A stretch of 40,218 bases of DNA, taken from IMG/VR virus record IMGVR_UViG_3300034102_003213, positions 1 to 40,218 of that record; one strand, written 5' to 3'. This DNA comes from a virus. The notes beneath the pieces were generated by a model that saw nothing but the letters and a program-made list of their open reading frames with translations, did not search any database and was not told the DNA's origin. Positions 7,991 to 38,991 of the stretch are shown in pieces. How positions within the stretch are numbered: position 1 is the first letter of the stretch; each line of letters begins with the position of its first letter. The translations under genes and the position numbers were made by a program.

Positions 7991-9310
7991 ATGTGGAAAC
8001 TTGTAATCCCTGCACTAGCAGTGGCTCTAACAGGATGTGGTGGTGGGGGAGCTGGAACTGGAACAACTTCTCAAGTGGTCGATGGCGTTGCTATTACTGC
8101 TGGATTTATTTCTACTCCTGCTACCTTTATTCCAAGCCTTGTTACTGGTAATTTTTCAACTGATGGTGCCAAGTACGTGATACTTAGCGGCTGGTATATT
8201 AGAAATACCACAGCACCACCAGTAAAAATATACCGCTTGTCCGATAGCACAGTCTCTGATGCCACAGTAGATATCCTCGGTGGCAATCATAGTATCTCAG
8301 TAAATTATCCTGTTGTGGCTGACTTTAATCGTGATGGTGTTGATGACATCTTCTTTGCTGGGTTTACTGATATACCTGGGACTTTAAATAATGCAAGTAC
8401 AGCGTTTATCAGCCGTCCAGGACAAAGCCATCAACAAGTAAATGTTCCAGGTTCTACATGGAGCCATGGCAGTGTTGCAGCCGATGTAAACAATGATGGG
8501 TTTATTGACGTTATAAACAGTCAAGGTCATATATGGACCAATGATGGCACTGGACAGTTTACATTTAACACTCGCAAAGACTGGCAACAAGGACATGCTG
8601 AGTATATTGCAGGCAGTGGAGTGTGTGCAGGAGATTTTGATCGTTCAGGAACCACACAAGTTGTTGCAACTGACTTGTCTATGAATGGCACATTACCACT
8701 CCGAGACACTTATATTTTTAAACTGGATAACACACTTGCACCTACTCGGATGGCTATATTGCCCACACCTTGGTTTGACATTGGCAATACAACAGCAACA
8801 GAACTCAGTCACGATGTTAGTTGCACAGTGGGCGATTTGAATAACGATGGGTGGCAAGACATCATTGTGATAAGTGCCAAAGAAGGTGTTACTACTACTC
8901 CAGAAAGTCGTGTGCAAATTTATTTGAATCGCGGCAATTGGCAGTTTGATGATGTAACTAGTTCAGCAATGAGTGGATGGAGCACAGCGGTATTGAGCAG
9001 TTACACGCCGCTCTTGGTTGATTACAACAATGACGGTCGGTTGGATCTTTGGTTAATGGGGTGGGACAATTGGGGTCGTAATAGTAACCAACTCTGGACA
9101 AACTCAACTACCACATCTTTCGTTCAAACAAAACAAACAGATTTTGACCAATTATTGACTAATTTTCAAACAGTAACAGGTGCGCCATCTAATAGACTGG
9201 GCATTATGATTCCTGTAAAAGTAAATGGCACCTGGAACTTTGCGTATACCAGCGCAGTTGCCAACAAAGTTTATGTTGGTTATGCTCGAACACAATGGAG
9301 TTTGCAATGA
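7991..9310 (+). CDS. Lipoprotein with FG-GAP/VCBS-type calcium-binding repeats
   Basis: The N-terminus MWKLVIPALAVALTGCGGGG is a lipoprotein signal with the acylated cysteine at residue 16, so the protein should be membrane-anchored in the host envelope. The mature part (439 aa total) carries a series of calcium-loop motifs: DFNRDGVDD (about residue 112), DVNNDGFID (165), DFDRSG (215), DLNNDGWQD (282) and DYNNDGRLD (343). Spacing of about 50-70 residues is typical of an integrin-like beta-propeller. These domains usually bind ligands or partner proteins. A phage-encoded lipoprotein of this kind could block receptors (superinfection exclusion) or bind surface glycans; both are inference. The stop overlaps the next gene by ATGA. 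Confidence 0.88.
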   Translation: MWKLVIPALAVALTGCGGGGAGTGTTSQVVDGVAITAGFISTPATFIPSLVTGNFSTDGAKYVILSGWYIRNTTAPPVKIYRLSDSTVSDATVDILGGNHSISVNYPVVADFNRDGVDDIFFAGFTDIPGTLNNASTAFISRPGQSHQQVNVPGSTWSHGSVAADVNNDGFIDVINSQGHIWTNDGTGQFTFNTRKDWQQGHAEYIAGSGVCAGDFDRSGTTQVVATDLSMNGTLPLRDTYIFKLDNTLAPTRMAILPTPWFDIGNTTATELSHDVSCTVGDLNNDGWQDIIVISAKEGVTTTPESRVQIYLNRGNWQFDDVTSSAMSGWSTAVLSSYTPLLVDYNNDGRLDLWLMGWDNWGRNSNQLWTNSTTTSFVQTKQTDFDQLLTNFQTVTGAPSNRLGIMIPVKVNGTWNFAYTSAVANKVYVGYARTQWSLQ

Positions 9311-10308: not shown

Positions 10309-11886
10309 ATGATATTTGGATTTGGAATTCTCGCCACCGCATTACTCTTAAGTGCCGTAGCTGCCTGGTACTCAGTGGCCGGCCTTACTGCTATATTTTC
10401 AGCGGCTGTATTGCCGGTGATCATCATGGGCGGTTCACTAGAACTGGGCAAAATTGTTGCCACAGTGTGGTTGCACAACAACTGGAAACGTGCCGGCATT
10501 GTGTTCAAACTGTATTTGATACCAGCCATAGCATTCTTAATGATACTGACCAGTATGGGTATTTTTGGATACCTGTCAAAAGCACATTCAGATCAAAGCC
10601 TAGTGTCAGGCGATGTTGTCAGCAAGATAGCAATATATGATGAAAAGATCAAGACCGAAAAAGAGAATATTGAAGCAAACCGTCGGGCACTTAAACAGAT
10701 GGATGAGGGCGTGGACCAAGTATTGGGCCGCTCAACAACAGAAACGGGTGCCGAAAAAGCTGTGGCTATGCGAAGAGCCCAGCAGAAAGAACGTGCTAGA
10801 CTTCAAGCTGAAATATCACAGTCGCAAAAGTCTATTGCGGAACTTAACGATGCCCGTGCGCCTATTGCCGCTGAAGTACGCAAGGTCGATGCGGAAGTTG
10901 GACCGATAAAATACATTGCAGCCTTGCTGTACGGGGACAATCCTGATGACAATCTGTTAGAACGTGCAGTGCGTTGGATGATCATAATGATTGTGCTGGT
11001 GTTTGATCCACTAGCTCTTACACTTATCCTAGCTGCCAACAAACAGTTTGAATGGGCACGACAAGGCACAGGCGGATTTGTACACGACGAACCCCGGTAC
11101 GAACCTGATGATGGGCCACTCACTGACGAACAAATAGAACAAATTCAGGCCAGTGCCGAGCCCTCAAAAGATCCACATCCAGTAGGTTGGATGTTTGGCG
11201 GCAAAGAAGACGAACGACCATGGAACGAACGTTATCCTTATCTTGCCAAGCCTTTTGATCACTTCAAAGATCTCAAGCCTATGGTGTATAAAGCAGAGGA
11301 TGCCACTACTCCAGAGGACACAATACCTTGCCACAAGTGTGGTACTATTCTATTAAATGCACCGGGCATTGGACTATTTTGTCCTAATAAAGCGTGTGAC
11401 GTAATAGATGGGCCATTTAACGATACCGATAAACAAGTAGAAATTATTTTTAATCAGCCATTGCCCGTAGAAGAAATTGAAACATCAGAGGTAGACCCCG
11501 ATGCTGCCGTCAAGGCTTGGAAAGCAGCCAATCCAGACGACACTATCAAAGCACAGCGAACCAAGTTGGCTCGTGGGCAAATTGATCATTTGCCCTGGCA
11601 AGAACCCCCAGCAACCACACATGCATTTGGTACAGAATTTCCTGACCAGCCCAACAAAGGTGATACATATTTAAAAGTAGATGCCATACCCAGTCGGTTG
11701 TACAAATACAACGGAAAGAGTTGGATACATATTGACAAAGACCATTCAGACAATTACACTTATGACACGGCATACATTGATTATCTCATCGCCAAAATTG
11801 ACTCAGGTGAGTATGATCCAGATTTGCTGAGTGATTTAGAACAAGAACAAATAGCCGCACGGCTCAACCCTGAAACCAAAATATGA
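10309..11886 (+). CDS. Membrane protein with coiled coil and zinc-ribbon-like motif
   Basis: A 525-aa protein. Residues 1-90 contain about three hydrophobic segments (MIFGFGILATALLLSAVAAW; LTAIFSAAVLPVIIMGG; LYLIPAIAFLMILTSMGIFG). They are followed by a long charged coiled coil (about 100-205) and a fourth membrane segment (MIIMIVLVFDPLALTLIL, about 225-242). The cytoplasmic part has a CHKCG...CPNKACD zinc-ribbon-like set near residue 345. Membrane proteins with this layout occur in T4-like cyanophages and pelagiphages without known function. It overlaps clpX by ATGA, which hints at a link between the two, perhaps membrane recruitment of the unfoldase (inference). Confidence 0.85.
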   Translation: MIFGFGILATALLLSAVAAWYSVAGLTAIFSAAVLPVIIMGGSLELGKIVATVWLHNNWKRAGIVFKLYLIPAIAFLMILTSMGIFGYLSKAHSDQSLVSGDVVSKIAIYDEKIKTEKENIEANRRALKQMDEGVDQVLGRSTTETGAEKAVAMRRAQQKERARLQAEISQSQKSIAELNDARAPIAAEVRKVDAEVGPIKYIAALLYGDNPDDNLLERAVRWMIIMIVLVFDPLALTLILAANKQFEWARQGTGGFVHDEPRYEPDDGPLTDEQIEQIQASAEPSKDPHPVGWMFGGKEDERPWNERYPYLAKPFDHFKDLKPMVYKAEDATTPEDTIPCHKCGTILLNAPGIGLFCPNKACDVIDGPFNDTDKQVEIIFNQPLPVEEIETSEVDPDAAVKAWKAANPDDTIKAQRTKLARGQIDHLPWQEPPATTHAFGTEFPDQPNKGDTYLKVDAIPSRLYKYNGKSWIHIDKDHSDNYTYDTAYIDYLIAKIDSGEYDPDLLSDLEQEQIAARLNPETKI

Positions 11887-13115
11887 AATTAACTGAAAAT
11901 CCTGATAGCTGTAGTTTTTGCAACAAGCACAAAGACGCAGTGATCAAACTCATTGTGGGAGAAGACGTTGCAATATGCAATGAATGTGTGGAATTGTGTG
12001 AGACTTTGCTGGTAGATGAACCCACAGTCAAAACTACAGAACATGTCTCTCTTGATCCAAGGCTAATTCAAAAACATCTTGATCAGTATGTTATCGGGCA
12101 AGATCGAGCCAAGATGGTGTTGGCAGTGGCCATTGCCAATCACTACAAGCGCATACGCAATCAGGACAAAAATACCGAAATTGAAAAAGTCAACATTCTC
12201 ATGTTAGGCCCCACAGGGTCGGGCAAAACGTTGTTGGCCCGTTCAGTGGCTAGATACTTAGACGTGCCTTTTGTGATTGCTGATGCTACATCTTTAACCG
12301 AAGCAGGATATGTAGGCGATGATGTGGAAAGTTTGATTTCGCGCCTGTACACTGCGTCAGGCAACGACATTGATAAAACACAACAGGGTATTGTGTTTGT
12401 GGACGAAATAGACAAGGTCAGTCGACGTTCAGAAAGTCAGAGCATCACACGAGATGTATCAGGCGAAGGCGTACAGCAAGCCTTGCTCAAGTTGGTAGAA
12501 GGTACCAAGTGCAGAATCACACCCACTGGTGGACGCAAACACCCCAATGGTGAAACTGTAGAAATTGACACCACCAATATTTTGTTTATTGCTGGCGGTG
12601 CATTTGTAGGTCTAGATAACATTGTGAAGAACCGTATTCGCGGCACGTCAATTGGATTTCAAGCTGATGTGTCAGTAGACCGACCAGGCGACCTTGATCA
12701 AGTAACTCCTGACGACCTAGTTAAATTTGGTATGATCCCGGAGTTTGTGGGACGTTTTCCAAGTTGGGTTGCACTAAACGAACTTGCACTAAAAGATTTA
12801 ATATCTATCCTAACAGAAATCAAACACAGTTATGTAGATCAGTACAAGTGGTTGTTTGTGCAAGACCAAGTCACTTTAGATTTTGAAAAAACAGCACTAG
12901 AACAAGTGGCCAAGAACACTCTAAAAAACAAAACAGGAGCACGTGGCCTTCATAGTGAACTAGAACGTGTGCTACTGCCACACATGTTCAACTTGGCACA
13001 TTACAAAGAACAAGGAATTGACCAAGTAAAAATCACTGATGACTTGGTAAATACTCCTATAGAATTAAAGGCACCCAATGAGCAAATTGCACGGAAGGTC
13101 GGTAATAGTCGCTGA
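11883..13115 (+). CDS. clpX: ClpX-like ATP-dependent unfoldase
   Basis: ClpX unfolds proteins and feeds them into ClpP. The 410-aa protein keeps the whole set of working parts: zinc-binding C10, C13, C32 and C35; Walker A GPTGSGKT (109-116); pore loop GYVG (142-145); Walker B VFVDEID (171-177); RKH loop (218-220); and an IGF loop (257-259) that docks on ClpP. Length is close to the 424 aa of E. coli ClpX. It overlaps the upstream membrane-protein gene by ATGA and the bS21 gene by 38 bases. Two ClpP-type proteases are encoded further along, so a phage-encoded or hybrid protease is plausible. Confidence 0.96.
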
Positions 13116-15259: not shown

Positions 15260-15625
15260 ATGAACATAATATTTGGCGACGCTATTAACACTGTATCCAG
15301 TGCTCACACTGTTTTAGAACTAGACACATTCAAGATAATGCCATCGGAGCAATTGGTAAAGACCTATTGTGTGATTGACAACTTGCCGTTGGCAGAGTTT
15401 CCGCGATTAGAGTCTAATAAACATATACATCAACAATTAATAGAACAGTATCAACTACAAAACTGGGAATTCTGTCGTAGCGCATTGCATTCGCTAACAG
15501 GCTGTTGGAATGGTGAAATGGACACTTTCTATCAACATTTGTCCGAACGTGTTGATGAATATATTGCCAATCCGCCAGGCACAGATTGGTCTCCAATTCT
15601 AATTAAATCTTCTCTGGCAGCATAG
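15260..15625 (+). CDS. Hypothetical protein
   Basis: A 121-aa soluble protein starting MNIIFGDAINTVSSAHTVLE, with an AAAGGAAATAACA site upstream. No membrane segment or catalytic motif is seen. Its 3' end overlaps the convergent glycosyltransferase-like gene by 23 bases. Proteins of this sort sit near sugar-modifying genes in marine phages, but the function is unknown. Confidence 0.75.
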   Translation: MNIIFGDAINTVSSAHTVLELDTFKIMPSEQLVKTYCVIDNLPLAEFPRLESNKHIHQQLIEQYQLQNWEFCRSALHSLTGCWNGEMDTFYQHLSERVDEYIANPPGTDWSPILIKSSLAA

Positions 15626-21261: not shown

Positions 21262-21285
21262 ACTGTGAACTACAAAGGAGAAATC

Positions 21286-22290
21286 ATGTTCAAACACTTA
21301 CTGACACTACTGGCCGCACTTACGGTGCTTACAGCACAAGCAGACATAACAGGCGCTGGCGCAACATTTCCATATCCAATCTACGCCAAATGGGCAGAGG
21401 GATACAAGAAAGCCACAGGAGTTAGTTTAAACTATCAAAGTATTGGTAGTTCAGGTGGCATTAGACAAATCAACGCCAAGACTGTAGACTTTGGCGCCAC
21501 AGATGCACCAGTCAGCGGAGAGAACTTAGACAAGATGGGTCAAGTTCAGTTTCCTGCTATCATTGGCGGAACAGTTCCTGTAATCAACTTAGATGGCATC
21601 AAGCCAGGCGAACTAAAAATCACTGGCTCAGTACTAGCAGATGTATTTTTAGGCACGATCACCAAGTGGAATGATCCTCGACTTGCAGCATTGAATCCAG
21701 GCAAGACATTGCCCAACGAAAACATTACAATTGTGCATCGCGCTGACGGATCAGGCACAACATTCAACTGGACAGATTATCTTGCTACTGTAAGTCCTGA
21801 GTGGCTGAGTAAGGTAGGTCGTGGTGCCGCAGTTAAATGGCCGGCTGCAAGTTCAGTAGGAGGCAAAGGCAACGAAGGTGTTGCTGCCAATGTGAATCGT
21901 ATCAAAGGTTCAATTGGTTATGTAGAGTATGCTTATGTTAAGAAAAATAACATGACGTTCCTACAACTGCAAAACAAAGCAGGCCGGTACGTCAGTCCAG
22001 ATGATTTAACATTTGCGGCAGCGGCAGATGGTGCTGATTGGTTCAGTATTCCTGGTATGGGACTCAGCATTGTGGATCAGAAGAATCCTAATGCCTGGCC
22101 AGTGAGTTCGGCCAGTTTCATCATCATGTACAAGAACCCTGCTAACAAAGCCAACAGCGATGAAGTACTAAAGTTCTTTGACTGGGCATTCAAGAACGGT
22201 CGCAAAATGAGTGAAGAACTAGACTATGTGCATTTGCCAGACAGTCTTACAAAGCAGATTCGTGAACGTGTTTGGACACAGATTAAGTAA
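21286..22290 (+). CDS. pstS: Phosphate-binding periplasmic protein PstS
   Basis: PstS captures phosphate for the host PstCAB transporter. The 334-aa protein has a signal peptide (MFKHLLTLLAALTVLTAQA) and then DITGAGATFPYPIYAKW, the classic mature N-terminus. Phosphate-site segments include IGSSGGIRQI, DFGATDAPVSG and HRADGSGTTFNWTDYL. Marine T4-like phages often carry pstS as an auxiliary gene that keeps phosphate coming in during infection. No pho box was recognised; the gene instead has a late-type TAAATA element. A strong terminator follows, so it is a single-gene transcript. Confidence 0.97.
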   Translation: MFKHLLTLLAALTVLTAQADITGAGATFPYPIYAKWAEGYKKATGVSLNYQSIGSSGGIRQINAKTVDFGATDAPVSGENLDKMGQVQFPAIIGGTVPVINLDGIKPGELKITGSVLADVFLGTITKWNDPRLAALNPGKTLPNENITIVHRADGSGTTFNWTDYLATVSPEWLSKVGRGAAVKWPAASSVGGKGNEGVAANVNRIKGSIGYVEYAYVKKNNMTFLQLQNKAGRYVSPDDLTFAAAADGADWFSIPGMGLSIVDQKNPNAWPVSSASFIIMYKNPANKANSDEVLKFFDWAFKNGRKMSEELDYVHLPDSLTKQIRERVWTQIK

Positions 22291-22796: not shown

Positions 22797-22799
22797 TTG

Positions 22800-24848
22800 A
22801 TGTTGAAAAAAATCCTAACAAGTCCATGGACAGCACTATTGACTTTGGCACTTATTTTAAGTATAAGAATTGCTGATCCTGCGTTTGTAGAAAGTGTAAG
22901 ACTACGTTACTTTGACACACTAATCACTGATCGTACTGTCACTGTGAGTGAACAAATTCACGTGGTCAACATTGATGATCGTGCCATTGCTCAACGTGGG
23001 CAATTTCCTTTTCCCAGAAATCAGTATGCTGACATTATTCGTCAGTTAGAGGATCGCAATGCCGGAGTGATTGTGTTTAACATATTCATGCCTGATGCGG
23101 ATCGTTTTGGGCAAGACTCCGCCCTGGCTCGGCAACTCAAAGAGAGTTTAGTAGTATTGCCACACATGGCCACCAACGAAGACACTGTGTCCAAACATGT
23201 GCCCTACAGACCCGGAGTTTCTGTAATAGGCACTGGTTTGCCGGGCATAGCATATCGAAGTATTCAACCCAACGTGAGGTCACTAAATGAAACAGCAAGC
23301 GGTATTGGTATTGTTAACACTTTGCCTGAAATCGACGGCGTTGTACGCCGAGTCCCCCAAGTCGTCACAGTTGGAGAACAAGTCTATCCCTCCATCAGTC
23401 TTGAAACGCTTAGAGTCCTTGCCGGAGATCCCAGCTTCCAGGTCCGAGTCAATGACGGAAGCGTTGAAGCAGTTAGAATTCCACAGTTTGGAAAAATTCC
23501 AACAGACAGTTACGGTAGAGTCTGGGTGGATTGGTCATCCCAACCGCAAGAACACTCCTTGGCTGATTTGCCAAAGGACTTCCAAGGTGGAATTGTCATT
23601 GTCGGACTCACAGCTCGCGGGCTCAACAACCCCGTCGCAACTGCAAGAGGAGAAGTCTATCCGCACTATTTGCAAGCCAGTGTACTAGAAACCGTGGCCG
23701 CAGGCACAAATATTGTGCGCCCAGACTACGCTGACGGAGTCGAAATACTTGTTATCTTAACAGCAGGTGTGTTATTATTAATTCTTACAAGGTGGGTGTA
23801 TGTTGGTCTTATCTCGTTGGTTGGAATATGCGCTGTACTTGCGTATGGCAGTTACTTTAGTTTTGTCAATTACCTTTGGTTATTTGACGTTACCCTCCCA
23901 ATCGCGGGCATTGTCCTCGTTGGACTACACGCCTACGGAGTCAAATTTGTCTCAGAGTTCCTCCAAAAACAAGCAATCAAAAAGCAATTTGCAGGCTACT
24001 GTTCCAAGGAAGTTGTAGAGCTGTTGCAAAAAGATCCAGACTTGATCAAGCGTGGTGTACGTAAAGATGTGTCAGTTATGTTCAGTGACCTACGTGGTTT
24101 TACTCCTATTGGCGAACACTACGGTGATGACGTTGCCGGGCTTGGCAAATACATGAATGGCTATATGGATGCTATCAGTCAACCAATGCTGGACAACAAG
24201 GGCATGATCATAAAGTATGTAGGTGATGCTTCCATGCACATACACGGTGCTCCTATTGAAGATCCTAATCATGCTAGAACTATTGTTCAAGTAGGTTTAG
24301 AGATGTTGGATGCTGTAGATGAATATACCAAGCTGATGGAAGCACAAGGCTTGCCACCAGCCGCAATGGGCTGGGGTTGTAACTCAGGGATTGGCTTTAT
24401 TGGTGAGATGGGTTCCACAGAACGACACAGCTATGACATTTTAGGTGACATGGTTAGCACAGCCGCACGTTTAGAAGCACGTTGTAAGGCTTATGGCGTA
24501 CTATGTATTATTGGTGCTGAAACATACAATCGCACTAAAGACGACTTCTTCTACTTGTTGTTGGACAACTTACAGCCTAAGGGCAAGACTGTGGCAGACT
24601 TGATCTACACAGTACTGCGAACACGTGGTGCGGATTATACTAAAGAACTTGGAACACACAATAAGATGCATGCCTTATACAAAGAAAAACAGTTTGATGC
24701 GGCTGTTATCTTGTGTGAAGAATTACACGGCAAGTTTGGCGGACAAATGGACAAGTACTACAAAATGTGGATTGAACGTTGCGACTTTATGAAACAACAA
24801 GACTTACCCAGTAACTGGAACGGTGAGTTTGTTGCCCACGAAAAGTAA
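22800..24848 (+). CDS. CHASE2-domain class III adenylate/guanylate cyclase
   Basis: A 682-aa membrane sensor-cyclase. One N-terminal membrane helix (about 10-25) leads to an extracytoplasmic CHASE2 domain (about 28-300). Three helices follow at about 310-330, 335-355 and 363-385, then a class III cyclase from about residue 420. Visible catalytic parts: metal Asp in FSDLRGFT (about 430), K-x-x-G-D in IKYVGDAS (about 472-476), and YDILGD (about 544-549), whose Asp favours ATP over GTP. The usual Asn of V-N-x-A-A-R is Ser (MVSTAARLEARC), so activity may be reduced. Start is the ATG at 22800; a TTG lies one codon upstream. It converges on the curli-type block; CHASE2 cyclases and FecR proteins are often neighbours in bacteria. 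Confidence 0.93.
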   Translation: MLKKILTSPWTALLTLALILSIRIADPAFVESVRLRYFDTLITDRTVTVSEQIHVVNIDDRAIAQRGQFPFPRNQYADIIRQLEDRNAGVIVFNIFMPDADRFGQDSALARQLKESLVVLPHMATNEDTVSKHVPYRPGVSVIGTGLPGIAYRSIQPNVRSLNETASGIGIVNTLPEIDGVVRRVPQVVTVGEQVYPSISLETLRVLAGDPSFQVRVNDGSVEAVRIPQFGKIPTDSYGRVWVDWSSQPQEHSLADLPKDFQGGIVIVGLTARGLNNPVATARGEVYPHYLQASVLETVAAGTNIVRPDYADGVEILVILTAGVLLLILTRWVYVGLISLVGICAVLAYGSYFSFVNYLWLFDVTLPIAGIVLVGLHAYGVKFVSEFLQKQAIKKQFAGYCSKEVVELLQKDPDLIKRGVRKDVSVMFSDLRGFTPIGEHYGDDVAGLGKYMNGYMDAISQPMLDNKGMIIKYVGDASMHIHGAPIEDPNHARTIVQVGLEMLDAVDEYTKLMEAQGLPPAAMGWGCNSGIGFIGEMGSTERHSYDILGDMVSTAARLEARCKAYGVLCIIGAETYNRTKDDFFYLLLDNLQPKGKTVADLIYTVLRTRGADYTKELGTHNKMHALYKEKQFDAAVILCEELHGKFGGQMDKYYKMWIERCDFMKQQDLPSNWNGEFVAHEK

Positions 24849-24856
24849 TTACTTTT
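24841..24856. terminator. Palindrome covering two convergent stop codons
   Basis: AAAAGTAATTACTTTT contains TAA on both strands and is flanked by CG and TATTTTCG, so it may act as a bidirectional terminator. Confidence 0.55.
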
Positions 24857-25178
24857 TATTTTCGTCTAACTTGGTAGCCTCATCAAACTTTTGATTGGCC
24901 TCTTGTTCAACTTTCATTTGTTCCATCACACGATCACCTTCAATCATCTTGCCACGCAAATGCAACACTGTGTTGACTTTTTGATTCAAACGAATAAGAT
25001 CATTGTCCAACATGCGTATGCGGTCAATGAGAGCAATCAACACAGTGTTGGCATCATTGATAACAGGTTTGACTTCTTTGGTGGCCCATTCCCAAACATA
25101 CTTGATGATGTAGCCCATGCCCACAGCCATCACAATAGGAAAGCCATATTTGTTTACTAAATCTACTACTTCACTCAT
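24849..25178 (-). CDS. Small membrane protein with coiled coil, holin/YvrJ-like
   Basis: A 109-aa protein starting MSEVVDLVNKYGFPIVMAVG, with one hydrophobic helix (GFPIVMAVGMGYIIKYVWEW) and a charged coiled-coil tail. The short LGFPI-type helix recalls YvrJ/BhlA-type small phage membrane proteins, some of which act as holins. It shares its layout, the GFPI motif and a LxxRI(x)n DLIRL segment with the protein at 25562-25843, so the two are probably paralogues. It overlaps the gene at 25175 by ATGA. The function is inferred; no lysis gene was recognised next to it. Confidence 0.75.
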   Translation of the reverse strand: MSEVVDLVNKYGFPIVMAVGMGYIIKYVWEWATKEVKPVINDANTVLIALIDRIRMLDNDLIRLNQKVNTVLHLRGKMIEGDRVMEQMKVEQEANQKFDEATKLDENKK

Positions 25179-25360
25179 TTTGTAGATCCTTCCAATACAA
25201 ATTGAACCATGGGGTCTACCTGGTGCAATCTTATTTTTCCATTGACTTCAACCATCTGCCAGAACTGCCCGGGCTTCCAGCCCAGTTTCTCAGTGTTTAA
25301 TTCTTGATCAGGCACAATGTATCCCGGCCCCAGGTCCCAATTATAATCTACATATAGCAT
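25175..25360 (-). CDS. Small hypothetical soluble protein
   Basis: A 61-aa protein starting MLYVDYNWDLGPGYIVPDQE. The start was chosen because AAGGAAAG precedes it; a longer open frame extends upstream but lacks such a site. It includes GWKPGQFWQMVEVNGKIRLH, a small beta-rich look. It sits between two membrane-protein genes, overlapping both. Function unknown. Confidence 0.75.
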   Translation of the reverse strand: MLYVDYNWDLGPGYIVPDQELNTEKLGWKPGQFWQMVEVNGKIRLHQVDPMVQFVLEGSTK

Positions 25361-25562
25361 TGTACTTTCCTTTTTGACGTTTGGCTTCGGATACCATGCG
25401 GATCCATTCTTTTTTTGCAGCAAGATCATCTTTCATTCTATCAAGTTTTGTAGCGCGGTAGCTGCCAGTCACACCCAATACCATGATATAACCAATGCCA
25501 AAGCCTAACAAAAGATATGCTATGTAATTTAAATTCAACACAAAATTAACTTCGTAAATCAT
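25341..25562 (-). CDS. Small single-pass membrane protein
   Basis: A 73-aa protein with one long hydrophobic helix (YIAYLLLGFGIGYIMVLGVT) and a basic, helical cytoplasmic tail (RMKDDLAAKKEWIRMVSEAK). It overlaps the upstream gene by one base (TGATG-like) and the downstream one by 20 bases. Together with its neighbours it forms a run of four small genes directly after fecR. Function unknown. Confidence 0.75.
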   Translation of the reverse strand: MIYEVNFVLNLNYIAYLLLGFGIGYIMVLGVTGSYRATKLDRMKDDLAAKKEWIRMVSEAKRQKGKYNAICRL

Positions 25563-25843: not shown

Positions 25844-25867
25844 GTTGGCTCCTTATTTTTATAGTAG

Positions 25868-25873
25868 TATTTA
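25868..25873 (-). promoter_or_regulatory. T4-late-like promoter element overlapping fecR stop
   Basis: Minus-strand TAAATA in CAATAAATACTAC; the TAA is the fecR stop codon. It would drive the four small genes down to 24849. Confidence 0.55.
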
Positions 25874-26947
25874 TTGACTTTGGACAATGGTAATTGTGGT
25901 GGTACCACCTGTGTTGATTTTTTGATAAACAGGAACACCATCCTGTTGCAAATCTAGTACGGCCCCTTGCTCCTTGGGAACAGTTAGTTCAAAAATATGA
26001 GTGCTATATCTAGTTAAAATCAGCTGTTCTTGATCATCTACCCGCCATTTTAATCCTGAGCCAGCGTCATAGCCAGGCAGCATGCTCAGCGTGGTTGACA
26101 TGGCTTCTTGTGTGGCTGATAGAGCTGCACTCACAGCATCCAACACATTGGGCAACAGTTCATCTTCTAGCTCATTACGATCCAGTCGGTTGAATGCATC
26201 CAGCTGATTATCTAAATCTGCAGGTTTTAAAAAGTCTCGATCAAGAAAATTCACATCCAACGCTGTTCGAGCATCTCGTTTTGTGTCCCGGTTTTCTTCG
26301 TTGATTTCTCGGGGTCGGCTAATGATCAGCATGTTGTTGATATTGGCCTGATCAATAGTCAACACAACTGGTCTAGTAGGCGGTGTATCTAGTGTGGAAA
26401 CCAGTGTGGCTTGGTAGGCCTGTGTCATCAGTATGCTACCAGATTGATTGGATACTTCAATAGCGCCTGTCACACATGTTTTCTCGTCACAACTGGGCAA
26501 CAGCATTATTAAACTGCGACCCAGCTCGTCTACTGTCATTGAAAAGTCTGTGCCACGCACAGCAATTGACGCTGTGGGTGTGGTGACTGCCACCTGTTGT
26601 GGGGAGTTTTTGGCAATTTGGCCCGATGCATATCTAGCTGTGCCCAATGCCACTTTCATGGCCAACTTGCCTGTGCCTGACTTTGGATCATACACGAAGT
26701 CATCAATTATCAGCTTTGACTGTTCGGTAATTTTTACTTTGGTGGCATCTTCAAAGGTAAGCTCGGCCCGAGATCTGGCCGTGACAATGGTGTCATTCAT
26801 TTCCACTGCGGTATTCACAGCACTGGGTATGCTTTTTCTCGCCCGTACTATTTCAGTAGGGCCACTTTGTTCAGTGACCTTACCTACTCCGGACCAAGCA
26901 TTAGTCAGACTGAGTAATACTGATATTAATGTTATTGCCCGAAGCAT
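25871..26947 (-). CDS. FecR-domain exported protein
   Basis: A 358-aa protein with a signal peptide (MLRAITLISVLLSLTNAWS). An alternative GTG start lies four codons upstream; this ATG gives the better signal. The FecR domain spans about residues 25-170, with SRAELTFEDATKVKITEQSK and TTPTASIAVRGTDFSMTVDE, the strongly conserved part of this beta-rich domain. The rest has helices and no recognised fold. FecR domains sense or bind at the envelope and are often found next to CHASE2 cyclases in bacterial genomes. The gene starts inside the curlin gene by 47 bases, so it is translated with the curli-type operon. The role is likely periplasmic or cell-surface assembly (inference). Confidence 0.9.
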   Translation of the reverse strand: MLRAITLISVLLSLTNAWSGVGKVTEQSGPTEIVRARKSIPSAVNTAVEMNDTIVTARSRAELTFEDATKVKITEQSKLIIDDFVYDPKSGTGKLAMKVALGTARYASGQIAKNSPQQVAVTTPTASIAVRGTDFSMTVDELGRSLIMLLPSCDEKTCVTGAIEVSNQSGSILMTQAYQATLVSTLDTPPTRPVVLTIDQANINNMLIISRPREINEENRDTKRDARTALDVNFLDRDFLKPADLDNQLDAFNRLDRNELEDELLPNVLDAVSAALSATQEAMSTTLSMLPGYDAGSGLKWRVDDQEQLILTRYSTHIFELTVPKEQGAVLDLQQDGVPVYQKINTGGTTTITIVQSQ

Positions 26948-27527
26948 TGACAGTTGCACTTTGAGTATTCATACCACTTTGTGCTACAGTGATTGCATTT
27001 GGAGTAGCACCAGAACCTGACCCAGTAACATTGATTGTGGCTGAGTTGGCGCCTGATCCTGAACTGCTGTGTGTGACATGGTTATAGTCCCCTTGCACTG
27101 TGATATTACTGGTGTGTGCTCCACCATTGGTGCCCAGGATACTTTGCACATCATTATTGTCACCTGTTATGGTATGCGTGATTGCAGACCCGCTACAGCT
27201 GGCGCTGATGCTGGTTCCGCATGTGATGGTCTGTTGGTTGCTGTCTCCTGTGACAACTGATGTTACATTGGTACCAGCACCATTGACCAACATAGCCAGT
27301 TGATTGCTGCCGCCAGATTGTTCAACGTAAACTACATTCTGACCACCACCAATAAAGGCCGGCGCCAACGCACTACCAATGGTATTGTTGCTACCTGCTT
27401 GTTTTAACGTCACAGTGGCATTATCGCCAACTTGATCTATATAAATTTCATTTGCAGCTTGAACGTGCGATAAAGCCATCATGCTCAATGCAAATATTGT
27501 CCCTTTGAGAGATCTTGTTATTTTCAT
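26901..27527 (-). CDS. Curlin-repeat (CsgA/CsgB-like) amyloid-type fibre protein
   Basis: A 208-aa protein with a signal peptide ending at SHVQA. The mature part has imperfect repeats of Gln/Asn-rich beta turns: IYIDQVGDNATVTLKQAGSN, VYVEQSGGSNQLAMLVNGAG, ITGDNNDVQSILG, ITVQGDYNHVTHSS and ITVAQSGMNTQSATV. This x-Q-x-G-x-N-x pattern and the near absence of charge are typical of curlins, which form amyloid fibres on the cell surface. A CTCGTSISASC segment may form a disulfide, unusual for curlins. It overlaps csgG by ATGA and is followed by fecR. The fibre could coat infected cells or glue cells together (inference). Confidence 0.85.
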   Translation of the reverse strand: MKITRSLKGTIFALSMMALSHVQAANEIYIDQVGDNATVTLKQAGSNNTIGSALAPAFIGGGQNVVYVEQSGGSNQLAMLVNGAGTNVTSVVTGDSNQQTITCGTSISASCSGSAITHTITGDNNDVQSILGTNGGAHTSNITVQGDYNHVTHSSSGSGANSATINVTGSGSGATPNAITVAQSGMNTQSATVNASGNNINISITQSD

Positions 27528-28348
27528 TTTTGTTTTGTGGGAGAGTTACTATCCTCATCCGCACTCCTTGGGTTTGTGCCCTTTTTGTATGACCAAAGTT
27601 TCCGTTTTGCTCCTTCTTGGATCATTTCGTACACCGCTTGTTCAATGGCTATTCGAACAGCGTATGTGGTGGGCTCATTAATCGCAGCCCCGTTCTCAAG
27701 TTCAACACTGGTTGTGCCAAGGTCAACAAATCTGAGAACTCCTTGATTGTGAGCGGTACTGAAAACAGTTTTACTCACAGCCGTATTCAGCAACACTTCC
27801 CCGGTGTTGACTGAAACTACTCGCATGGAAATAACAATTTCATCCACGCGATATTGTGTACTGACCCCAACCCCCAGTATTCTAGCGCCACGGCCACCAG
27901 ATGTTATGTTGGTGTCATACCCAATGATGCCGCCTTCAATCATGAGTCCGGCCACCAAGAGTGGTTTGAGTGGCTTGGCGTCTTTGCCTTCGTACACTTC
28001 GCGTTGATTACGGATCAGTTGACGTTCTTTGATCAAGTTGTCCAAACTCACACGTTCAACCACTGTGAACCAATTGGGGGTGTCTTGCAAGGCCTTGATC
28101 AAAAACACTTCAGCACCTTGTGTGACTGCTGTAGAAAACAGCGCCAGCTTGTCGTTGTTTTTTTTCTGGCCGGTCTTGTCCACAAATCCATACACAGCAA
28201 CTGGTATTCTTGGTCCATCCAATTCAGGCAAGGTGGTCAACAGATTCTGTCGTGGCACTAATTTGGGTGGCTGTGCATCAAATTGGCTTTGATCCAAACT
28301 GGCACAACCAGACACAACCAACAACAATGATAAAAACAGTGCTTTCAT
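27524..28348 (-). CDS. csgG: CsgG-like curli secretion channel, outer-membrane lipoprotein
   Basis: CsgG forms the nonameric outer-membrane pore that exports curlin. The 274-aa protein starts with a lipoprotein signal (MKALFLSLLLVVSGCAS, Cys 15) and keeps family segments: RIPVAVYGFVDKTGQ, FTVVERVSLDNLIKERQLIR, MIEGGIIGYDTNITSGG and RGARILGVGVSTQYRVDEI. The start is the ATG at 28348; the frame opens one TTG codon earlier. TGATG couples it to csgF. Curli-type genes have, to my memory, been seen in SAR11-infecting myophages, so this is likely a related phage cassette. Confidence 0.93.
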   Translation of the reverse strand: MKALFLSLLLVVSGCASLDQSQFDAQPPKLVPRQNLLTTLPELDGPRIPVAVYGFVDKTGQKKNNDKLALFSTAVTQGAEVFLIKALQDTPNWFTVVERVSLDNLIKERQLIRNQREVYEGKDAKPLKPLLVAGLMIEGGIIGYDTNITSGGRGARILGVGVSTQYRVDEIVISMRVVSVNTGEVLLNTAVSKTVFSTAHNQGVLRFVDLGTTSVELENGAAINEPTTYAVRIAIEQAVYEMIQEGAKRKLWSYKKGTNPRSADEDSNSPTKQK

Positions 28349-28788
28349 CAAAATGCAAAACTCGCTAGTGGCACAGTTATTTCTGTGCGATTGCCATTGC
28401 TTTCCAGAATGGTCAATGTTACATCACTAGAGCTTTTGACCCAGCTGATGTTGGTGCCTTGAAAATCCAAACTGCCTGTGGTGCCGCCGCCGCTGAACAA
28501 CGAGTCTGCTAACTGCTTGCTCAACTGAGCATAGATGCGACTTTCTACGTTGACCAGGAATTTGGCTATGTTGGTTTGTTTGGCCGCAAGCTCAGCCTTG
28601 GCCAGCTTGCTTGCTTCTTCTTCTTTAAGTTTTTGACGGCGTGTGGCTTCTAATTGTTCAATTGTGAGAACGTGGCTGCTATACCCAATGCCATTGAACG
28701 CAGGCGAATTGAACTGATGTACTAGTTCAGTGGCTGAAACTCCAGCTGCAACCAGCATCAAGGCAAATGTTGTTATTGTTGTTTTCAT
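28348..28788 (-). CDS. csgF: CsgF-like curli assembly factor
   Basis: CsgF binds the extracellular mouth of CsgG and links it to the nucleating curlin. The 146-aa protein has a signal peptide (MKTTITTFALMLVAAGVSA) and then TELVHQFNSPAFNGIGYSSH, which matches the mature CsgF N-terminus (ELVHQFxNPxFGG) that plugs CsgG. The length is near E. coli CsgF (138 aa). It is the first gene of the minus-strand curli operon (csgF, csgG, curlin, fecR). A late-type TAAATA element lies upstream inside a terminator hairpin. No csgE was found in this window. Confidence 0.92.
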   Translation of the reverse strand: MKTTITTFALMLVAAGVSATELVHQFNSPAFNGIGYSSHVLTIEQLEATRRQKLKEEEASKLAKAELAAKQTNIAKFLVNVESRIYAQLSKQLADSLFSGGGTTGSLDFQGTNISWVKSSSDVTLTILESNGNRTEITVPLASFAF

Positions 28789-28823
28789 AGAAAAGCCCCA
28801 TGTAGTATTTACACGGGGCTTCT
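28789..28823 (-). terminator. Terminator hairpin with a late promoter in its loop
   Basis: Read on the minus strand, AGAAGCCCC pairs with GGGGCTTTTCT. It would end the transcript of the gene at 28843. The loop contains GTGTAAATACTAC, a late-type element (28806-28811) for csgF. Confidence 0.7.
28806..28811 (-). promoter_or_regulatory. T4-late-like promoter element for the curli operon
   Basis: Minus-strand TAAATA in TGTAAATACTAC, 18 bases upstream of the csgF ATG. Confidence 0.55.
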
Positions 28824-29344: not shown

Positions 29345-29617
29345 ATGTTTACAGCAGACGCATTCATCGACACCGTACAAACCGGTAAAAAAACTTGGGT
29401 CAACACTTTTGTCACAAACGAATTGGTAAAAGACGCAATGATCAAGTTCATTGACAACCAAGCCGAATACACCAAGAAAGCATTCAAAGCAACCACAGAC
29501 GCCGCAACCACTGTGGCCAGCGAAACTGTGAAAGCCGTGCAAGAAACCACCAAATTTGACTATGTGAAATTTGGCGAAGGCATCATGAAGGCTTACACAG
29601 CAACTTCTAAAAAGTAA
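29345..29617 (+). CDS. Phasin-like protein
   Basis: A 90-aa helical, lysine- and alanine-rich protein (MFTADAFIDTVQTGKKTWVN, then IKFIDNQAEYTKKAFKATTD). This resembles short phasins, which coat polyhydroxyalkanoate granules and can bind DNA or act as chaperones. Phasin-like proteins in phages are uncommon. The strong TTAAGGAG site, its own promoter and its own terminator suggest high expression. The host probably makes PHA if this is a true phasin (inference). Confidence 0.65.
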   Translation: MFTADAFIDTVQTGKKTWVNTFVTNELVKDAMIKFIDNQAEYTKKAFKATTDAATTVASETVKAVQETTKFDYVKFGEGIMKAYTATSKK

Positions 29618-29635
29618 TACTCAAGTATTACATCC

Positions 29636-29665
29636 AAAGCCCTGTCATTTTGGCGGGGCTTTTTC
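29636..29665 (+). terminator. Rho-independent terminator after the phasin-like gene
   Basis: AAAGCCC pairs with GGGCTTT across a 13-base loop, followed by TTC. A second inverted repeat (GTAATAC-TCAA-GTATTAC, 29614-29631) overlaps the stop codon. Confidence 0.85.
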
Positions 29666-29694
29666 TTGACTGGAAATTCCCGATCTGCTATACT
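29666..29694 (+). promoter_or_regulatory. Sigma70-type early promoter
   Basis: TTGACT, 17-base spacer, TATACT preceded by TGC. The leader TATGGACATATTAACGCAAA recurs at 29976. Confidence 0.88.
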
Positions 29695-29725
29695 ATGGAC
29701 ATATTAACGCAAAAGGAGCTCAGAT

Positions 29726-32235: not shown

Positions 32236-32811
32236 ATGACCACCGATAACTCCCTTCAAATTGAGCAGACACACAGCCAAGCCTTGGCTGACGCAGGAAT
32301 GTATGTTTTCATGGGTGAAGTCGATGATGACAATATCAAACCCATAATTGAGTGGATTTTGCACGAGAACTTTGTGGCAAAGAAAAAACGCAAAGAACTC
32401 TTGCTGATGATTTGCTCAGAAGGCGGGGACATGAGTTCGGCATTTGCCTTGATTGATGTCATGCGCAGTTCGCTTATTCCAATCAAGGCTGTGGGTCTGG
32501 GGCAAATTGCCAGTGCCGGATTGTTGATCTTTTTGGCAGGAACACCGGGACGTAGAACTCTTACTCCCAATACATCAATCATGAGTCACCAGTATGCCTG
32601 GGGAAGTGATGGTAAACATCATGAGTTGCTGGCTACAATTAAAGAGTTTGAACTCACACAAAAACGCATGGTACAACATTATATAGATTGTACAGGTCTA
32701 AACGAAGACCAAATCAAGCAACATCTGTTGCCACCGCATGATGTTTATTTGGGTGCGGATGATGCCTTGCGTTTGGGCATCTGTGACCACATCAGCCAAC
32801 TGACTCGTTAA
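32236..32811 (+). CDS. ClpP-like serine protease, divergent copy
   Basis: A 191-aa ClpP-fold protein. Catalytic residues are present: S93 in GLGQIASAGLLIF, H118 in SIMSHQYAWG and D169 in PPHDVYLGADDA. The sequence is far from the canonical copy at 34440 and lacks its GQAASMG signature, so it may be a regulatory or substrate-specialised subunit that forms mixed rings, as ClpR/ClpP pairs do in cyanobacteria (inference). No ribosome-binding site is seen in the 15 bases before the ATG. It converges on the gene ending at 32808, overlapping by four bases. Confidence 0.9.
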   Translation: MTTDNSLQIEQTHSQALADAGMYVFMGEVDDDNIKPIIEWILHENFVAKKKRKELLLMICSEGGDMSSAFALIDVMRSSLIPIKAVGLGQIASAGLLIFLAGTPGRRTLTPNTSIMSHQYAWGSDGKHHELLATIKEFELTQKRMVQHYIDCTGLNEDQIKQHLLPPHDVYLGADDALRLGICDHISQLTR

Positions 32812-34388: not shown

Positions 34389-34416
34389 TGTTTTTTTCCA
34401 AGAATAATGCTATACT
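34388..34416 (+). promoter_or_regulatory. Sigma70-type promoter with extended -10 for clpP
   Basis: TTGTTT, 17-base spacer, TGCTATACT. The -35 box begins at the start codon of the opposite-strand gene. Confidence 0.65.
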
Positions 34417-34439
34417 TATGCAATCAACCAGGAGACCCC

Positions 34440-35030
34440 ATGTCAAATCTAGTGCCAATTGTTATCGAAAACACTTCCCGAGGCGAACGCAGTTACGACC
34501 TTTACAGCAGACTGTTAAAAGATCGTGTGATCATGCTGGACGGAGAAGTTACCCAACACACAGCCAGTTTAATCTGTGCGCAGTTATTGTTTTTAGAAAG
34601 TGACAATCCTGACAAAGCCATCAGTTTGTACATCAACTCACCGGGCGGATCAGTCACAGCCGGTATGGCCATTTACGATACCATGAATTTTATCCGGCCT
34701 GCAATCCATACCATTGTGATGGGGCAAGCTGCCAGCATGGGGTCATTGTTGGCCACAGCTGGAGACAAGGGCAATCGTTATATTCTGCCAAATGCACGCC
34801 ACATGATTCACCAACCCCTAGGCGGCGCATCAGGACAGGCAACAGATGTTGAAATCCAAGCACGAGAACTATTGCGTTGGAAAAAAGTTCTAACAGAAAT
34901 TTATGTCAAACACACTGGCAAGAGCTACGTCGAACTTGAATCAGACATGGAACGTGACTTCTTTATGACTGCTGAAGAAGCTGTTAAATACGGTCTCGCT
35001 GACAAAGTTCTAACCACTCGTGACACTTAA
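34440..35030 (+). CDS. clpP: ATP-dependent Clp protease proteolytic subunit
   Basis: ClpP is the ring-shaped peptidase partnered with ClpX or ClpA. The 196-aa protein is canonical: S99 in [12 protein letters not shown]124 in HMIHQPLGG and D173 in [11 protein letters not shown]. The N-terminus [20 protein letters not shown] is standard. The start at MSNLVP is preceded by CCAGGAGACCCC; the open frame upstream would begin within the promoter. It overlaps the radical SAM gene by 11 bases. With ClpX, ClpS and a second ClpP in the same window, it could form a phage-controlled protease. Confidence 0.97.
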
Positions 35031-37969: not shown

Positions 37970-38203
37970 ATGAAATTAGATACAGACGAAATTTTGCAGT
38001 GGGGAGGCGCCGTGTTTATTGTGGCGGGCCACAGTTTCAACGCCATTGGGCCTGCGGCTTATCCTTACAATATCCTTACATTTTTTATAGGAACCATACT
38101 ATTTCTAATATGGTGCATTCGTGTTGCAAATAAACCACAGATGTTTGTGAATCTTGTAAGTGTAGCAATTGGACTTACAGGGCTTGTGAAAGCATTTGGT
38201 TGA
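37970..38203 (+). CDS. Small membrane protein, leaderless
   Basis: A 77-aa protein with about three hydrophobic segments: QWGGAVFIVAGHSFNAIG, YNILTFFIGTILFLIWCI and MFVNLVSVAIGLTGLVKAF. Similar small proteins occur in marine phages with unknown function. The start is fixed by the promoter: no leader and no ribosome-binding site. The last codons overlap the next promoter. Confidence 0.85.
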   Translation: MKLDTDEILQWGGAVFIVAGHSFNAIGPAAYPYNILTFFIGTILFLIWCIRVANKPQMFVNLVSVAIGLTGLVKAFG

Positions 38204-38228
38204 CCAATAATTCCCAATTTGCTATAAT
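38200..38228 (+). promoter_or_regulatory. Sigma70-type early promoter
   Basis: TTGACC, 17-base spacer, TGCTATAAT. The leader ATAGCATAGTTTAACAAAAA is shared with the promoter at 38655. Confidence 0.92.
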
Positions 38229-38258
38229 ATAGCATAGTTTAACAAAAAGGAGCCACAA

Positions 38259-38648
38259 ATGCGTAATTTTACCAAGCAAGAACGCCTTAACGACATTGAC
38301 ACTAACGACATTGGTGAGTACATTGAAGACTTTGGCGACGAAACCCTGAACAAGGCGTTTGGCAAGTTCTGCATTATGGATGACGAAATAGCCTTCCACA
38401 AAGTGTTAACAGACGAGGTTGGCTACGACGAAGACGAGGTTGCCGATGGCGATCTAGAGATTGTGCATAAGACAGTAGAAGAGACCCTGAAACAAGTTAA
38501 CCTTGTGTTCAAGAACTTGGGCATTGACCTGGAGTTCAAATCCGCAGACATGGTGGAATACGGTGCTTACATGTTAACAGGCAAAGGCGACACGCCCGAG
38601 GATATGGGCCACCGTATCCGTAAACTAGTAGCAGGTCAACCTGTATAA
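38259..38648 (+). CDS. Acidic hypothetical protein
   Basis: A 129-aa strongly acidic protein (VGYDEDEVADGDLEIVHKTV, FGDETLNKAFGKFCIMDDEI), possibly a nucleic-acid mimic or host-protein inhibitor (inference from composition only). The start follows AAAAAGGAGCCACAA. Its promoter is a near copy of the next gene's. Confidence 0.85.
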   Translation: MRNFTKQERLNDIDTNDIGEYIEDFGDETLNKAFGKFCIMDDEIAFHKVLTDEVGYDEDEVADGDLEIVHKTVEETLKQVNLVFKNLGIDLEFKSADMVEYGAYMLTGKGDTPEDMGHRIRKLVAGQPV

Positions 38649-38654
38649 AAACGG

Positions 38655-38683
38655 TTGACCAATAATTCCCAATTTGCTATAAT
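38655..38683 (+). promoter_or_regulatory. Sigma70-type early promoter
   Basis: TTGACC, 17-base spacer, TGCTATAAT. Almost identical to the promoter at 38200, including the leader. Confidence 0.92.
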
Positions 38684-38712
38684 ATAGCATAGTTTAACAA
38701 AAAGGAGCCAAA

Positions 38713-38991
38713 ATGAGTTACGTAATTGTCGCAAAAGGTACAGGTCTTATTGTTACAGATGGTCCCAACAAAACTCGTGCATACAAAACTTTTGGTGCCG
38801 CAAAGGCAACTCGTACCCGTCTTTGCAACAAAGCAGGTTGGAACGAAAGCCAATTGAACATTGTTGCTCGCGATACCTACACCGCACCCAAGATCACTGT
38901 TCGCAATTTGATGTCCGGTAAGGACGTGGAAATTGATGCAGACACACCTTGGGCTTGCCGTGTTGACAGCGAAGCATTTTGGAGCAACTGA
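38713..38991 (+). CDS. Small hypothetical early protein
   Basis: A 92-aa protein starting MSYVIVAKGTGLIVTDGPNK, with TYTAPKITVRNLMSGKDVEI later. Basic N-terminal half, AAAAAGGAGCC site. No known domain. Starts a chain of five closely spaced genes. Confidence 0.85.
   Translation: MSYVIVAKGTGLIVTDGPNKTRAYKTFGAAKATRTRLCNKAGWNESQLNIVARDTYTAPKITVRNLMSGKDVEIDADTPWACRVDSEAFWSN

Follow-up and report, generated by a model that had tools for sequence, protein, structure and literature searches.

The window analysed here, a 40-kb virus record (IMG/VR IMGVR_UViG_3300034102_003213, 40,218 nucleotides), carries a conserved, late-type phage type VIII secretion system (T8SS) of a kind that has already been described, and what is new is the phage lineage in which it sits and the arrangement of its genes. 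Our preferred reading, held with moderate confidence from sequence evidence, is that a jumbo phage encodes a phage-adapted type VIII (curli) secretion module, expressed late, that would make a surface fibre. An earlier sequence-only reading of this DNA recognised the operon itself and missed both the small-protein pair of the module and the jumbo-phage context. The features on which the analysis rests are as follows.

28803..28811, minus strand: T4-type late-promoter-like TAAATACTA before csgF, in the loop of a hairpin (28820-28794)
28348..28788, minus strand: csgF, 146 aa, outer-membrane pore partner (Pfam CsgF 9e-14, above cut-off)
27524..28351, minus strand: csgG, 275 aa, lipoprotein outer-membrane secretion pore (Pfam CsgG 9e-52, above cut-off)
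26901..27527, minus strand: curlin-repeat fibre subunit, 208 aa, with signal peptide (family profile, AlphaFold repeat model)
25871..26959, minus strand: exported FecR-domain protein, 362 aa (Pfam FecR 1e-10, above cut-off)
25865..25873, minus strand: T4-type late-promoter-like TAAATACTA before h1, overlapping the FecR stop codon
25562..25843, minus strand: h1, 93 aa, N-terminal hydrophobic stretch, phrog_18771, C-terminus DARRD conserved
25341..25562, minus strand: small hydrophobic ORF between h1 and h2, three sequences only
25175..25429, minus strand: small ORF between h1 and h2, perhaps AbrB/MazE-like (weak)
24849..25178, minus strand: h2, 109-aa paralogue of h1, with conserved LIDRIRMLDNDLIRLNQK
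22797..24848, plus strand: CHASE2 sensor with class III adenylate/guanylate cyclase, 683 aa (Pfam CHASE2 2e-37, Guanylate_cyc 8e-14)
15260..15625, plus strand: orphan paralogue of the cyclase C-terminal tail, 121 aa

The csgF, csgG, curlin and fecR genes form one overlapping minus-strand operon running from 28788 to 25871, with overlaps of 4 bases (csgF/csgG), 4 bases (csgG/curlin) and 59 bases (curlin/fecR). The curlin/FecR overlap is also found in relatives, mostly as -59 or -77. The earlier reading had placed these four genes correctly, including their strand and overlaps, and had rightly assigned the operon to a phage; Pfam backs CsgF, CsgG and FecR above cut-off. All 36 viral csgG loci with full flanks contain csgF, curlin and FecR, and the cyclase and the h family are present in 31 and 26 of them, respectively. 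Relative to the nearest relative (L005), dN/dS was 0.06-0.09 for csgF, csgG, curlin (0.07), fecR and the cyclase, as expected for genes under purifying selection. The constancy of the gene set together with these low ratios excludes chance.

CsgF and CsgG were reported in phages in 2020, with sibling capture proposed (PMC7029224), and csgGF has been noted in sediment viruses (PMC9636769). A CsgF-CsgG-curlin-FecR-cyclase module was then published for SAR11 podo- and myophages (PMC9599517, 2022), which bears out the earlier mention of curli genes in SAR11 myophages. FecR and the cyclase, previously taken for an expanded form, belong to this standard viral module and are also found in HTVC008M and Melnitz, where the gene order is CsgF-CsgG-curlin-FecR-curlin-cyclase. 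The pelagiphage T8SS (HTVC023P-type podophages and Myoviridae; PMC9599517) has CsgF, CsgG, curlin, FecR and adenylate cyclase in common with the window, and the CsgF-CsgG-curlin-FecR order is the same. Like the window, it has no CsgE, and it includes small genes beside csgF that are named HK there. The window differs by its jumbo lineage, by a cyclase on the opposite strand and by a small pair that lies downstream of FecR and gives no kinase match. A second curlin and a collinear cyclase are frequent, not universal, in the published module, whereas the window and its 364-kb relative (G001) have a single curlin and the cyclase of the window is convergent. HTVC008M and Melnitz (Kyanoviridae) have the same genes as the window, including a CsgG that is 45-48% identical and the same h1/h2 pair, annotated as hypothetical; they differ in having a second curlin after FecR, a collinear cyclase and the h pair upstream of csgF. 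Bacterial curli operons (E. coli csgBAC/csgDEFG and alphaproteobacterial loci) share the CsgG pore, CsgF and curlin repeats with the window but differ in CsgE, which was not found in the phage module. Among the chromosome-like bacterial loci examined, FecR and the cyclase occur in one only (L100, a Hyphomonas MAG) and h1/h2 in none. The open-access literature (subscription journals and preprints being outside its scope) yielded no link between curli and jumbo phages, and no experiment showing secretion or fibres was found in the literature.

Both pore components keep their characteristic features. CsgF retains the N-terminal FNSPAFNG motif and is present in 82 of the 84 sequences searched. CsgG has a VSGC lipobox, with Cys16 invariant in the alignment, and the family profile matches E. 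coli CsgG structures over the whole length, pore segments included (E 5e-69). The presence of the pore-forming segment had been singled out as a point to check, and by alignment the phage CsgG appears to match that of E. coli from end to end. On our reading of this alignment, phage CsgG would retain the Phe of the E. coli constriction but lack its Tyr and Asn. The suggestion to look for csgE nearby led to a negative result, since the CsgE family (PF10627) was absent from the window and from the other 11 records searched (nine long T8SS contigs and two isolates), with a positive E. coli control. CsgE, a periplasmic cap, is frequent in type VIII (curli) systems and non-essential.

Several variants of the pore genes were observed among the relatives. 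CsgG reaches at least 340 aa in 32 of 124 loci, with a C-terminal extension in L015 (8004-9146), L061 (7959-9206) and about 30 other viral loci; the extension in L015 is a bacterial SH3 domain, above the Pfam cut-off, and perhaps binds peptidoglycan. An exported protein of about 670 aa is encoded between csgF and csgG in L031 (5995-8004), L045 (5959-8004), L018 (3078-5093) and L058 (2095-4074), its C-terminal part resembling an outer-membrane barrel, and a csgF-csgG gap of corresponding size occurs in nine loci. Additionally, a 1,499-base ‘Salmonella phage’ record (OR851715.1) has an unannotated csgG and is possibly host DNA.

The earlier reading held that a single phage carries both the channel (CsgG/CsgF) and its own fibre subunit, and the curlin profile agrees with this. 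Pfam Curlin_rpt gives 0.008 for the single window curlin, which is under the cut-off; a profile of 65 phage curlins matches solved curlins (8c50, E 1e-12; E. coli CsgA 8enq, E 5e-4), and the curlin call therefore stands. The AlphaFold model (pLDDT 87, pTM 0.80) is a chain of strand-turn-strand units, and the predicted number of units, about eight, replaces the former estimate of about five repeats. Whether the repeats fit the beta-solenoid fold had been raised as a possible objection, and the chain is modelled as a regular strand-turn-strand repeat. A Foldseek search of the model against the PDB returned no significant match. The cysteine pair pointed out earlier corresponds to C103 and C111 in ITCGTSISASC and is near-invariant.

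We then examined sequences upstream of each gene for TAAATA[C/T], which we take to be the core of T4-type late promoters. Within 100 bases upstream, this motif was found for csgF in 43/90 viral loci, for h1 in 64/103 and for the cyclase in 30/97. The internal genes of the units served as control and gave 0/92 (csgG), 4/128 (curlin), 5/98 (FecR) and 1/111 (h2), counts that are not independent because the sequences are related. The motif is kept where the remaining upstream sequence has diverged. Literal TATAAATA late promoters showed no enrichment. The late-type promoters proposed earlier thus have their likely counterpart in the T4-type TAAATACTA before csgF and h1, a motif that is kept across relatives and rare inside units. 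This pattern supports late expression in separate units.

The stretch separating FecR from the cyclase contains h1 and h2, and in most cases a third small ORF lies between the two. The ORF type at 25175..25429 was found in 53 of 79 h2 loci (80 closest of 581 relatives), with a Pfam MazE match of 0.19 in one relative only; nothing reliable was obtained from Pfam for h1, h2 or the intervening small ORF. The h family takes at least three placements in viral csgG loci: ahead of csgF, after FecR, or past the cyclase in convergent orientation. When IMG/VR was searched with h2 alone, the 79 loci obtained from the 80 closest of 581 relatives, more distant members of which may differ, contained within 8 kb the cyclase (71), curlin (53), FecR (49) and CsgG (44), most missing cases being short or cut-off stretches. 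Among 50,697 phage records, only six, all of them Melnitz/HTVC008M, contain h1 and h2; these six also have csgG, which otherwise occurs in a single 1.5-kb fragment. Three jumbo isolates with related terminases gave no h1/h2. In GTDB contigs, the pair is restricted to MAG contigs that look like binned phage because they carry the viral module. This distribution indicates that h1/h2 belong to the curli module and form an under-recognised, phage-only partner pair. Relative to L005, dN/dS was 0 for h1 and 0.40 for h2 (0.11-0.17 for h2 against other relatives). The pair occupies the position where PMC9599517 puts its HK, and h1/h2 are probably the ‘histidine kinase’ genes of that study. No kinase family matched h1 or h2 at E 0.1 or their relatives at E 0.5 (Pfam), and HisKA/HATPase domains were not found in h1 (93 aa) or h2 (109 aa).

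Small tandem genes of this sort also enter the best-surviving alternative, in which the CsgG/CsgF pore has been repurposed for lysis timing as a gated, pinholin-like device, as proposed for Melnitz in 2022 (PMC9004378), and h1/h2 act as tandem holin/antiholin. We consider this unlikely. Late motifs at the unit starts and the tandem arrangement of two small paralogues are in line with it, as are the six of 11 h2 members that touch a PHROG holin family at their N-terminus and the occurrence of a T4-type lysozyme (PF00959, the family searched) in 1/12 records only. However, the holin match spans only the first 23 residues (phrog_4898, E 5e-5). A pore for lysis would have no use for a fibre subunit, but all 36 flanked loci contain curlin, a gene under strong purifying selection, and CsgG lies in the outer membrane, where its opening leaves the cytoplasm undepolarised.

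The cyclase is convergent to the curli operon in the window. Its D431, K473, D477 and R558 (the metal Asp pair, substrate Lys and transition-state Arg) are invariant in 103 sequences. The position of the transition-state Asn is occupied by Ser554 in the window and by Ser in 50 of the 103 sequences, which makes cyclase activity uncertain. A stand-alone cyclase-tail gene lies just upstream of csgF in many relatives (e.g., L012, L028, L042, L063).

The FecR-domain protein has an exported-type N-terminus and, in the AlphaFold model, a FecR fold (26-190), a flexible helical linker and a C-terminal beta domain (303-360). Foldseek matches the model to the FecR/PupR-type periplasmic domains of anti-sigma factors and, more weakly, to 5ix9, a 76-residue cell-surface anchoring domain. 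The periplasmic FecR fold is thus common to the phage protein and the FecR/PupR cell-surface-signalling anti-sigma factors; the phage protein differs in having an extra C-terminal beta domain and in lacking the cytoplasmic anti-sigma domain (Pfam shows the FecR domain only) and a transmembrane segment (all hydrophobic peaks are below threshold). Since it is exported and without the anti-sigma part, a role as iron regulator is unlikely. This bears on a second alternative, proposed in PMC7029224 and PMC9599517, that the pore lets infected cells take up nutrients that are large or scarce (cobalamin, siderophores), with FecR pointing to iron. A PstS phosphate-binding gene nearby in the same phage would suit this proposal, which nevertheless appears improbable given a FecR without anti-sigma part or transmembrane segment, no TonB-dependent receptor among the annotated window ORFs, and a conserved curlin that it leaves unexplained. 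The end of the FecR protein has a conserved motif (QDG...Q..N.GG.T.ITI.Q) that is curlin-like in look, and this likeness is suggestive only; a true curlin repeat at the C-terminus was rejected (hhalign probability 9%).

To place the phage, we aligned the window with larger contigs. About three quarters of it (73%) aligns, nearly all colinear, with 122-161 kb of the 364-kb IMG/VR contig G001 at 68-95% DNA identity. G001 encodes a permuted tmRNA as well as 30 tRNA genes, and its terminase shares 51% identity with those of PA5oct-type jumbo phages. By this alignment, we assign the window as a fragment of a jumbo phage. The terminase tree separates the module carriers widely: 12 contigs of 116-364 kb make up a jumbo clade near PA5oct, and HTVC008M, Melnitz and two contigs of 160-170 kb belong to a distant, T4-like group; terminases of HTVC008M and Melnitz are 33-35% identical to that of the jumbo relative. 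L046, in the T4-like group, has a CsgG about 65% identical to that of the window and a terminase 32% identical to the jumbo one, which indicates that the module moves between lineages. In the CsgG tree, which was built by a quick method and has some poorly supported branches, the phage sequences make up a single group separate from the bacterial ones, except that one bacterial sequence, L100, falls among them on a long branch. The idea that these are functionless passenger genes recently captured from a bacterium, where curli operons are common, is largely refuted by the separate grouping of phage CsgG, the low dN/dS and the retention of the module, in several gene orders, by two phage lineages that are far apart.

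Two approaches to the host were set aside. By PstS, the best of 369 sampled class genomes was 77% identical, and this genome and six of seven other top genomes lack CsgG; by tmRNA, Rfam tmRNA_permuted was the best match, alpha_tmRNA was weak, and three candidate genomes lack alpha_tmRNA, which was not decisive. The PstS-like phosphate-binding protein lies at 21265-22290 (+), and the permuted tmRNA of the 364-kb relative at L263 2707-3103 (-), with tag ANDEKFLMAA. The window also encodes a ClpX-like ATPase (zinc finger and AAA; 11883-13115), two ClpP-like proteases (32236-32811 and 34407-35030) and an FG-GAP repeat protein (7991-9310, +), and dispersed repeats at 29609-29719, 38191-38265 and 38639-38718 match several G001 sites near 111-113 kb.

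On the preferred reading of a late fibre-making secretion module, CsgG and CsgF would assemble in the outer membrane late in infection, and curlin would pass the pore unfolded and build a curli-like fibre on the outside of the infected cell. As an adaptor in the periplasm or at the pore, FecR may take the place of the absent CsgE and/or CsgB and serve as anchor, plug or nucleator, and the CHASE2-cyclase may sense the periplasmic state and convert it into cAMP. h1/h2 would probably be inner-membrane parts of cyclase signalling or gating, a membrane role being our inference; in h2, all hydrophobic peaks stay under the threshold used. The likeliest benefit would be a change to the surface of a cell that is already doomed, by which neighbours aggregate or rival phages are kept out, and a choice between the two would be a guess; the Melnitz authors observed no clumping of cells (PMC9004378). 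As a more tentative extension, phages might have evolved a curli system of their own, in which h1/h2 and the small gene between them form an undescribed inner-membrane device, found in phages only, that works with FecR and the CHASE2 cyclase to sense or gate the outer-membrane fibre exporter late in infection, the whole set spreading as a unit among giant and T4-like phages.

Viral-type CsgG contigs, most with the rest of the module, are binned into MAGs (L084-L089, L117, L119, L124, L139, L141) labelled as Bacteroidota, Planctomycetota, Cyanobacteriota and others, and such contigs are a contamination trap for curli surveys. Our analysis questions two current labels, ‘iron regulator’ for FecR and ‘histidine kinase’ for the small genes. 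With late promoters and a defined gene set that is transferable to laboratory E. coli, the function is testable. In the papers we found, phage curli genes have so far come mainly from marine phages of small-genome hosts; a jumbo clade with the module, the same phage-only pair and differing gene orders shows this to be a mobile phage trait under selection, not a peculiarity of SAR11.
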